From: Alicyclobacillus acidocaldarius subsp. acidocaldarius Tc-4-1
GTDB taxonomy: Bacteria > Bacillota > Bacilli > Alicyclobacillales > Alicyclobacillaceae
Direction of reading: 5' to 3'
Assembly: GCF_000219875.1 (NCBI RefSeq)
Contig: NC_017167.1
Coordinates: 538,765-602,764, forward strand
Length of the DNA stretch: 64,000 nucleotides
Below, piece by piece: positions 43,281-53,024 of this stretch; position 1 is the stretch's first letter, and every line of letters starts with the position of its first letter. The translations under genes and the position numbers were made by a program. A model generated the notes under the pieces. It worked only from the letters and a program-made list of their open reading frames with translations. It was not told the origin of the DNA and searched no databases.

Positions 43281-44870
43281 ATGCATAGGACGTCGTCCGC
43301 GAGTGTAGCCGGGCGCCTGCGCAATTGGATCGGCTACGCGTGGCGAGACGCGGAAGCCAGCGAATACCTCGACGTCTTCGATCCAGCGACCGCGGAGGTC
43401 ATCGCTCAGGTGCCGCTGTCGACACAACAAGACGTGGAAATGGCTGTGGCGGCGGCTGCGGAAGCGTTTCGGGAATGGAGCAAGACCCCTGTACCTCGCC
43501 GCGCGCGAATCTTCTTTCGCTATCAGCAACTGCTCGTCGATCATTGGGACGAACTCGCCCGACTGATCGTCCGCGAGAACGGCAAGAGCTACAAGGACGC
43601 CTACGGGGAGGTGCAGCGCGCGATCGAAAACGTCGAGTTTGCCGCGAGCGCGCCAACGCTCCTCATGGGAGAACAATTGGCCAATATCGCGACATCCTTG
43701 GACTCGGGCATGTACCGGTACCCACTTGGCGTGGTGGCAGGCATCACGCCGTTCAACTTTCCGATGATGGTCCCTTGCTGGATGTTTCCTCTGGCTATCG
43801 TCTGCGGGAACACGTTCGTGTTGAAGCCTTCCGAGCGGACGCCGCTTTTGGCCCAGCGGTTGGCCGAGCTGCTCGAGGAGGCGGGCCTGCCCTCCGGGGT
43901 CTTCAACATTGTGCACGGCGCCCGAGAGGTCGTTCAAGGCCTGATCGAACATCCGACGGTTCGCGCCATCTCGTTCTTCGGATCGCAGCCGGTGGTCGCG
44001 TACGTGTACCGCGAAGCGGCAGCCCACGGCAAGCGCGTGCAGGCGCTGGCAGGCGCCAAGAATCACACCATCGTGATGCCGGACGCGGATCTGGACGAAG
44101 CCATCCCCCAGATCATCTCGGCCGCGTTCGACTCGGCGGGCGAGCGCTGCATGGCCTGTTCCGTCGTCGTGGCAGTAGGTTCCATCGCAGATCGCCTCGT
44201 CGAAGGCCTGAAGTCCGCTGCCGATCAGATCCGCATCGGCAACGGCCTAGGAGCGTGTCCGAGTAATCAAATTTACTTGCATATACATGCGGAGTGCTGA
44301 GTAAAAACAGTGATGATATACAGTTCCATGAGCATTTTATACAGGAAAATCGAATACTCGGACACGCTCCTAGACGAAGATGTCCTGCTTGGTCCCGTCA
44401 TCCGGGCAGAACATCGAGATCGGACGTTGCAGTACATCGATCTCGGCATCCAGGAGGGCGCGGTCCTTGTGCGCGACGGACGCCAGGATCGCGTGGATGA
44501 AAACGGGTACTTCGTCGGACCCACGATTTTCGATCACGTCCGCCCTTCCATGAAGATCTGGCAAGACGAGATCTTTGCGCCCGTGCTGTCGGTCGTGTGG
44601 ATGGGCACGCTGGACGAGGCCATCGCGTTGGCCAACCAGTCCCGGTTTGTGAACGGAGCCTGCATCTTCACGAACAGCGCGTCCGCCATTCGCAAGTTCC
44701 GCGAGGAAATCGACGCGGGAATGCTTGGAGTCAACATCGGTGTTCCTGCTCCCATGGCGTTCTTCCCCTTCTCGGGGTGGAAGGATTCCTTCTACGGCGA
44801 TCTGCACGCCAACGGCAAGGACGGCGTGGCGTTTTACACGCGCCGAAAGATGATCACGGCAAGAGTATGA
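43281..44870 (+). pseudogene. mmsA: Methylmalonate-semialdehyde dehydrogenase-type gene, split by a MITE-like insertion
   Basis: CoA-acylating aldehyde dehydrogenase family. The N-terminal part (43281-44250) has [20 protein letters not shown] and the catalytic Cys in SAGERCMAC; it runs to IRIGNGL. After the element, the frame resumes with [13 protein letters not shown] and ends at 44870. Precise excision of the element plus one CTAG gives NGLDEDV and one continuous 488-residue protein. As it stands, translation stops at TGA 44298-44300 inside the element, yielding a product lacking the C-terminal third. A start at ATG 44310 could only make the C-terminal third. Unlikely to be active. Confidence 0.9.
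44251..44369. mobile_element. MITE-like element, 119 bp, 15-bp perfect terminal inverted repeats
   Basis: GAGCGTGTCCGAGTA (44251-44265) is the exact reverse complement of TACTCGGACACGCTC (44355-44369). CTAG flanks it on both sides (44247-44250 and 44370-44373), a target duplication; alternatively TA is the duplication and the repeats are one base longer. It is AT-richer than the host gene, has no coding potential for a transposase, and so must have been moved by another element. Ends and target resemble IS5- or IS630-type elements; no family was assigned. Confidence 0.88.
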
Positions 44871-51776: not shown

Positions 51777-53024
51777 TCATTCGCCGAGGCGCTCCACCTG
51801 CTGCCGCATGCTCGCGAGGAATGCCTGGCGCTTCTCCGCTTGCAACGCGTACTGCTGAAGCGCGTCGAGCTGGCTTGGTTCGGCCCCGAAGTGGTACCGC
51901 GCGTGCGCGACTCGCCAAGGCAGGTAGGGAAAGCGCAGGATGGCCTCGACAGCGCGATACTCGGATTTCGGAATCGTGCGAACGGCGTCAAAGTGCAGAA
52001 AACACGCGTAGGCCAAATGTCCGTTCCAATTGCCGCGTTCAAGACTGCGCCGCAAAAGGTGCGCCATATCAAGCACTCGGGGCGCAGGGCGTGCGAGTTC
52101 AAAATCGATCAACACCACTTGGTGTTGCGCCGTGTACAGGCAGTTTGACGGAATGACGTCGAGGTGGCACCAACCGCCGGAAGAGCGCTCCGCCTCCAGG
52201 TACGCGATCACGTCGCGATCTTCGAATAGGGCCAGGCTTTCGGAAGCGTCGCGGTGCAGTTCATCCCGCATCGAGAGTAACAGTTGGTCAAATGCGTCCT
52301 TTTCCCTTTTCCGGTCGGCTCGAAAGCACATCTGACGCAGATCGCGCCATCGCGCTTGAAACAGGCCGAACACGTCGTCCGCCGCCTCGTCTGGCTTCCA
52401 ATCCGTTCGAAAGCTCCGCGTGGCCTCGTGAAACTGGGCCAGGGTGTACGCGGTCTGGGCCACGTGTTCGGGCAGACCGAAGTTGGCGGGTTGTCCAGAC
52501 ACCCACTCTGTGACGTAATACGTAAAGTCCCCATGGCGCACGTATGGGGCCTTGGACGACGTGGTAACGAACCGAGCGAATTTGGTGAAGCCCTGTTCTT
52601 GGGCGTGGCGGAGACACTGAGCCATCGTGCGGCAGTGATCCGGCGCGATGGAGGAGCGCTTGGCGGCGTAGCGTCGCCCCTTGCCGTCTGTCCAAACCTC
52701 GATGTTTCCCTCCGTGTGCCGCTGTTCAATGGCGAGATCGTACTTGGATACCACGGCCTGCGGGATGAGCGGCACCTGGCTCCGCGGGCTAGTTCGTGCA
52801 CCATGGTCGGCGGTTCGCCTAGAACCTCGCATTTCGTCCGCTTCACGCGGTGGCCGTACAGTCGCGGTGGCCGCAGGAGGAGTTGCCTCGGGCGCTCGAC
52901 GGCCTCCCGACTCGGATGGCGGCGCGTCCGGCGATGGCTGTGAGGATAGAAATGCGGGGGGAGCAAGCAGTTCCGCGAGCAGATGCTGCACCCATTCGGG
53001 CATGTTGGATTTCTGGCTTCTCAT
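51777..53024 (-). CDS. CotS-like spore coat kinase-fold protein
   Basis: A 415-residue protein of the aminoglycoside-phosphotransferase/CotS kinase-like fold. The Brenner-type motif is HLDVIPSN and the metal-binding motif is LIDFELA; the N-lobe carries YAAKRSS. The first 125 residues are a low-complexity S/P/R/A region. The start is set at ATG 53024 because ggaggg lies 9 bases upstream; the open frame runs on to 53243 but without a site. In Bacillus CotS-family proteins sit in the spore coat. The exact role is unknown. Confidence 0.72.
   Translation of the reverse strand: MRSQKSNMPEWVQHLLAELLAPPAFLSSQPSPDAPPSESGGRRAPEATPPAATATVRPPREADEMRGSRRTADHGARTSPRSQVPLIPQAVVSKYDLAIEQRHTEGNIEVWTDGKGRRYAAKRSSIAPDHCRTMAQCLRHAQEQGFTKFARFVTTSSKAPYVRHGDFTYYVTEWVSGQPANFGLPEHVAQTAYTLAQFHEATRSFRTDWKPDEAADDVFGLFQARWRDLRQMCFRADRKREKDAFDQLLLSMRDELHRDASESLALFEDRDVIAYLEAERSSGGWCHLDVIPSNCLYTAQHQVVLIDFELARPAPRVLDMAHLLRRSLERGNWNGHLAYACFLHFDAVRTIPKSEYRAVEAILRFPYLPWRVAHARYHFGAEPSQLDALQQYALQAEKRQAFLASMRQQVERLGE

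Follow-up and report, generated by a model that had tools for sequence, protein, structure and literature searches.

MITEs linked to the IS1182 family have been described in Methanosarcina acetivorans as non-coding elements of 160 and 169 bp whose inverted repeats (IRs) measure 26 and 25; ISMac2 is the partner, and for one of the two a direct repeat of 4 is given. Archaeal MITEs and their partners are said there to share generally the IR borders only (PMC3852290). MITEPsy1 of Pseudomonas syringae is 100 nt long, has 18-nt terminal repeats and duplicates CTAG or YTAA (PMC3189936). Within the IS1182 family, ISPse1 of Paracoccus is listed with the values 1653, 16/16 and 4, which we take to be its length, its inverted repeats and its direct repeat (PMC3281130), while IS1272 uses palindromic targets and has been proposed to replace the target stem-loop (PMC5678879). 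The available text of PMC3119063 concerns CTAG avoidance only. IS1182-linked MITEs and a CTAG-duplicating 100-nt MITE are thus already in print (PMC3852290, PMC3189936). No paper on an IS1182 transposase with a CTAG target was found in the literature searched; ISfinder records lie outside it, and we therefore make no claim to a first report.

Here we analyzed a 119-bp insert in an MMSDH-type aldehyde dehydrogenase gene of Alicyclobacillus acidocaldarius subsp. acidocaldarius Tc-4-1. The window, by which we mean the whole 64,000-nucleotide stretch analyzed, is C1:538765-602764 of a single-contig genome of 3,124,048 bases; Table 1 lists the features. We observed the element, the target duplication, an empty site, relatives at other sites and insertion sequence (IS) partners in other genomes. 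The insert is very probably a MITE with the ends of a CTAG-targeting IS1182 subgroup that occurs in the host's bacterial family.

Table 1. Features of the interrupted gene and its insert, in window positions (the TIGR01722 (MMSDH) model is 477 positions long).
Feature	Position	Strand	Basis
MMSDH-type aldehyde dehydrogenase gene, 5' part	43281..44250	+	TIGR01722 positions 2-309
CTAG, left copy of 4-bp target-site duplication	44247..44250	.	G002 empty site; 23/24 two-ended sites
MITE, 119 bp, non-autonomous, IS1182-type ends (probable)	44251..44369	+ (strand arbitrary)	relatives, non-coding, fold
Left terminal inverted repeat, 15 bp	44251..44265	+	ends of IS1182-family elements, 0-2 mismatches
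TGA, sole stop in host-gene frame within element	44298..44300	+	frame translation
Right terminal inverted repeat, 15 bp	44355..44369	-	ends of IS1182-family elements, 0-2 mismatches
CTAG, right copy of 4-bp target-site duplication	44370..44373	.	G002 empty site; 23/24 two-ended sites
MMSDH-type aldehyde dehydrogenase gene, 3' part, stop codon included	44370..44870	+	TIGR01722 positions 316-476

A sequence-only reading of the window had described a MITE-like element with 15-bp perfect inverted repeats, CTAG on both flanks, 119 bp without coding capacity between the CTAGs, and a single TGA blocking the host frame. These features are all present as described: no transposase coding was found in the 119 bp, and the TGA is the only in-frame stop. 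The insert is thus short and non-coding, with terminal inverted repeats and a target duplication, as in other MITEs. Once CTAG and the subterminal bases are counted, the inverted ends extend to 31 bp at 87% complementarity.

The closest relative compared, G002, carries the gene intact (1449 of 1467 aligned bases identical to the window gene, frame open for 488 residues), with one CTAG at the junction, which reads GGCCTAGAC, and exactly 123 bases fewer, indicating an insertion of 119 bp with duplication of 4 bp. In G012, the only other genome for which the site was aligned at base level, 1294 of 1467 bases are identical and the site is again empty by exactly 123 bases, but without CTAG. The net insertion of 123 bp proposed from the window alone is therefore exactly the difference from both relatives, and the empty site of G002 bears out the proposed 4-bp CTAG duplication. 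When the 15 genomes of the genus were searched with the gene DNA, 13 gave some match; outside the own genome, matches over the whole query were confined to G002 (99%) and G012 (91%). The alignment with 79 of the 80 fetched homologues (one of at most 430 residues was left out) has no inserted column at residues 318-330, the place of the element.

The fetched loci provided 24 distinct two-ended sites, the window's own among them; in 23 of these both flanks are CTAG, and the remaining one has CTAG/CCAG. Among distinct end flanks, 64 of 68 are CTAG, and the rest are CTGG (2), CTAA and TTAG. An extended-palindrome target like that of IS1272 was considered and rejected, since beyond CTAG a single site has 7 of 8 palindromic positions and the other 23 have 0-5 of 8. 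The target is scarce: the whole window contains 28 CTAGs, whereas trinucleotides predict 41 and base composition predicts 224.

Relatives of the element were found in other genomes. Twelve of 41 family genomes matched at E 0.01, many through the ends alone. Six relatives (83-96% identical) are end-to-end and reside in two genera other than the host's: three in G028 (96, 95, and 89%) and three in G015 (87, 85, and 83%; in the 83% relative one end was not recognized within 2 mismatches). A truncated near-identical piece (99% over 90 bases) occurs in a third species, G008. Further partial relatives include three in G028 and a decayed one in G014, and 31 bases of the element interior are matched in G040. 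The relatives sit at unrelated loci across genomes, as expected for a MITE. An order-wide search (59 genomes vs 41 in the family) found no further carrier, and the plasmid and phage collections searched with the element gave no match. An exact 19-base match in viral contigs (L266) was set aside as adding nothing, since we take it to be the same record as contig C46 of G015 (both 19,264 bases); C46 carries the same ends.

The end repeat, which the sequence-only reading had proposed to look for at other loci, also bounds transposase-bearing elements. Genomes G003, G006, G014, and G033 carry CTAG-flanked ISs of 1609-1623 bp with ends 0-1 mismatch from the element's 15 bp, and G015 and G030 carry ISs of 1562-1565 bp with ends 2 mismatches away. 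Two partner transposases were scored on the NCBIfam IS1182 model (one from G006, one from G003) and reached 357 and 385 bits, above its cut-off of 270 bits; both also match Pfam DUF772 and DDE_Tnp_1. In G006, 13 places encode an identical 463-aa transposase, and with this protein as query (E 1e-20) 9 of the 41 family genomes were positive, among them G036, for whose stretches no end pair within 2 mismatches is listed. The 1.62-kb IS of G006 also exists in 3271- and 3521-bp forms (L137, L138, L209), whose 5' part holds an inserted second open frame (464 or 516 aa); the two 3271-bp copies, L137 and L209, occupy separate CTAG sites, as though the nested element had been moved as one unit.

The ends of the insert thus match autonomous partners, which are found in other genomes only. 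The DNA shared with the ISs is limited to the first 21-23 bases including CTAG (17-19 after CTAG), and therefore we call the insert IS1182-linked by its ends only. Derivation of the 119 bp by deletion from an IS1182-type IS was also considered and not adopted, as only these 21-23 bases match the sampled ISs. The interior matches none of them, so none can be named as the parent. It also speaks against the IS1182-linked account that no genome examined combines a near-identical MITE with an intact IS whose ends match exactly: the own genome and G028 (a draft) lack the matching transposase.

The sequence-only reading had further expected a related active transposase elsewhere in the same genome. 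This was not borne out: the element is single-copy there, the matching subfamily has 0 matches in the own genome (G006 transposase query, E 1e-20), and the own ends that could be recognized differ. A transposase with the same ends does exist, on the IS1182-type ISs of other genomes, and none was found in the own genome. An end-pattern scan of the own genome allowing up to 3 mismatches gave 133 matches, fewer than the reversed control (179), and no exact match other than the two of this element. Searched with the IS1182 profile, the own genome has 29 matching stretches, two of them over the cut-off. We fetched 13 stretches covering 27 of the 29 profile matches: ends of two other kinds were recognized in six and no ends in the other seven, and in none of the 13 does a CTAG pair bound matching ends. 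In L282 a CTAG borders just one of the two ends. Isolated end-like matches (up to 4 mismatches) also occur in L282, L284, L285, and L290 and were not placed as end pairs. The best own transposase is 24% identical to the partner over 140 residues, and tblastn of the partner transposase against the own stretches gave nothing better than E 2.7. The genomes G028 (draft) and G012 have no IS1182 profile match. Separately, L281, L282, and L286 of the own genome are three copies of an approximately 2-kb IS1182-profile element with ends GAGAGCTCTGAAAAAGT; two of its transposases score equally, above the cut-off, and one copy is interrupted by stops. This element is another IS1182 lineage in the same genome.

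The gene lies in a stretch of unusual similarity to G002. At 42.0-51.0 kb of the window, 500-base bins are 96.8-99.8% identical to G002, and bins on either side are 80-95% identical; the average is 98.9% for 42.0-49.5 kb compared to 91.4% outside 41.5-49.6 kb. Judged from this step in identity, the tract of about 42.0-50.9 kb, near 99% identical to G002, is recombined and was exchanged recently between lineages. The tract is also a catabolic operon (Fe-ADH, MMSDH, MFS, sigma-54 regulator, and acyl-CoA ligase). Elsewhere, in G008 (L268, C114:35514-36197), the regulator and ligase genes are represented by three closely spaced fragments with 94-97% identity to the window, as if the remainder had been lost by deletions.

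We propose that a DDE transposase from an IS1182-type IS would have acted in trans on the 15-bp ends, that the element would have been joined to 4-bp staggered cuts at the CTAG in the dehydrogenase gene, and that repair would then have duplicated CTAG. The helper may once have been present in the own genome and later been lost, or the copy may have arrived on recombined or transferred DNA. In a more specific form of the latter, the copy was imported already inserted with the tract of about 42.0-50.9 kb; this is compatible with a MITE and differs only in the mode of arrival. The high identity of the tract bins to G002 relative to their surroundings and the absence of a matching transposase from the own genome favor such an import, but the G002 version of the tract is empty and no filled-site donor is present among the genomes compared. 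We consider it rather unlikely.

Other accounts question the nature of the insert itself. It could be a member of a different transposase group, one whose targets resemble CTAG or YTAR, with ends that are similar by chance. Duplication of CTAG is not confined to this IS1182 subgroup: MITEPsy1 of Pseudomonas, which duplicates CTAG or YTAA, is linked to ISPsy2 (PMC3189936). The partner transposases also score 57 and 78 bits on the IS5_4 model. These scores, however, are below the cut-off of 140 whereas the IS1182 scores are above theirs, and the 15-bp ends coincide together with the CTAG flanks with IS1182-type ISs in several genomes, which makes another group very improbable. The strong hairpin (-40.6 kcal/mol for a single RNA strand vs a shuffle mean of -22.3, z -6.0, with 0 of 200 shuffles folding as low) could alternatively suggest a functional regulatory or RNA element that is not mobile. 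Inverted ends alone give a hairpin, however; no family reached E 1 in the Rfam scan of 43900-44700, and a simple promoter/terminator scan gave no promoter- or terminator-like match. The insert is also missing at the same place in G002 and G012 and has relatives at unrelated sites, and a regulatory role in place of mobility is extremely unlikely. Returning to the IS1182-linked MITE, it is possible, if doubtful, that a near-identical IS1182-type MITE spreads across the species and genera of the family by DNA exchange, without a resident matching transposase and with CTAG as a near-strict target.

We next turn to the fate of the gene. The product of the interrupted gene ends after 339 residues, compared to 488 in the intact form. 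The gene had been regarded as uneroded and the insertion hence as recent; the substitutions speak against the first and leave the second unsupported. Using G012 to polarize the changes in the gene, we assigned 10 non-synonymous (one codon accounts for two) and 2 synonymous changes to the own branch, and 3 and 2, respectively, to the G002 branch; one further synonymous change remained unassigned. The other polarized tract genes (Fe-ADH, the first 173 codons of the MFS gene, and the sigma-54 regulator) have 7 non-synonymous and 9 synonymous changes on the own branch, and 4 and 13 on the G002 branch. In Fisher tests on these small numbers, the own branch of the gene gave p 0.054 against the other own-branch genes and p 0.010 against all G002-branch changes. 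Eleven of the 12 own-branch changes in the gene are from G/C to A/T. The open reading frames at 52850, 56741, and 61800 (dN/dS 1.9 to 5) are probably not real frames and were not used.

The own protein alters residues 19, 233, and 284, each invariant in 79 of 79 homologues; residue 284 is six before Cys290, which by motif we take to be the catalytic cysteine. Of 136 invariant columns, 5 differ in the own protein (two of these departures are common to the own, G002, and G012 proteins), 2 in G002 and 4 in G012, and in a leave-one-out analysis 1 of 79 homologues departs at 3 or more columns. The 4 departures of G012, which has no insertion, warn that this count by itself is not decisive. The regulator (6 non-synonymous and 3 synonymous changes on the own branch) and the acyl-CoA ligase (11 and 4, unpolarized) also look relaxed, and the pathway as a whole may therefore be losing constraint. 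The gene drifted after the insertion, or was drifting already. Recovery of the frame would need the loss of the element and one CTAG, and activity would probably not be regained even then. An MMSDH paralogue in the same genome (C1:1371353-1372777, over the MMSDH cut-off, open frame of 488) may make loss of the gene tolerable.

The locus provides a clean pair of filled and empty sites in which a 4-bp CTAG duplication is visible directly at one site, within a family of related elements that spans three genera. It also documents the loss of constraint on a gene that surrounds a transposon, and it cautions that a gene should not be assumed recoverable because its reading frame is. The element changes no general view.

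Compared to the known systems, the element is like the Methanosarcina MITEs in being non-coding, in having an IS1182 partner and in sharing with it only the ends; those MITEs, however, are archaeal, longer and present in 14 and 7 copies, whereas here a single copy of 119 bp has no matching partner in its genome (PMC3852290). Like MITEPsy1 it is a short MITE that duplicates CTAG on insertion, but the ends differ, and MITEPsy1 was linked by its authors to ISPsy2 in a main text that does not use the term IS1182 (PMC3189936). With ISPse1, which is autonomous, it has in common the 4 that we read as the direct repeat (PMC3281130). IS1272 belongs to the same family, but at the locus described here the target was kept and 4 bp of it were duplicated (PMC5678879).
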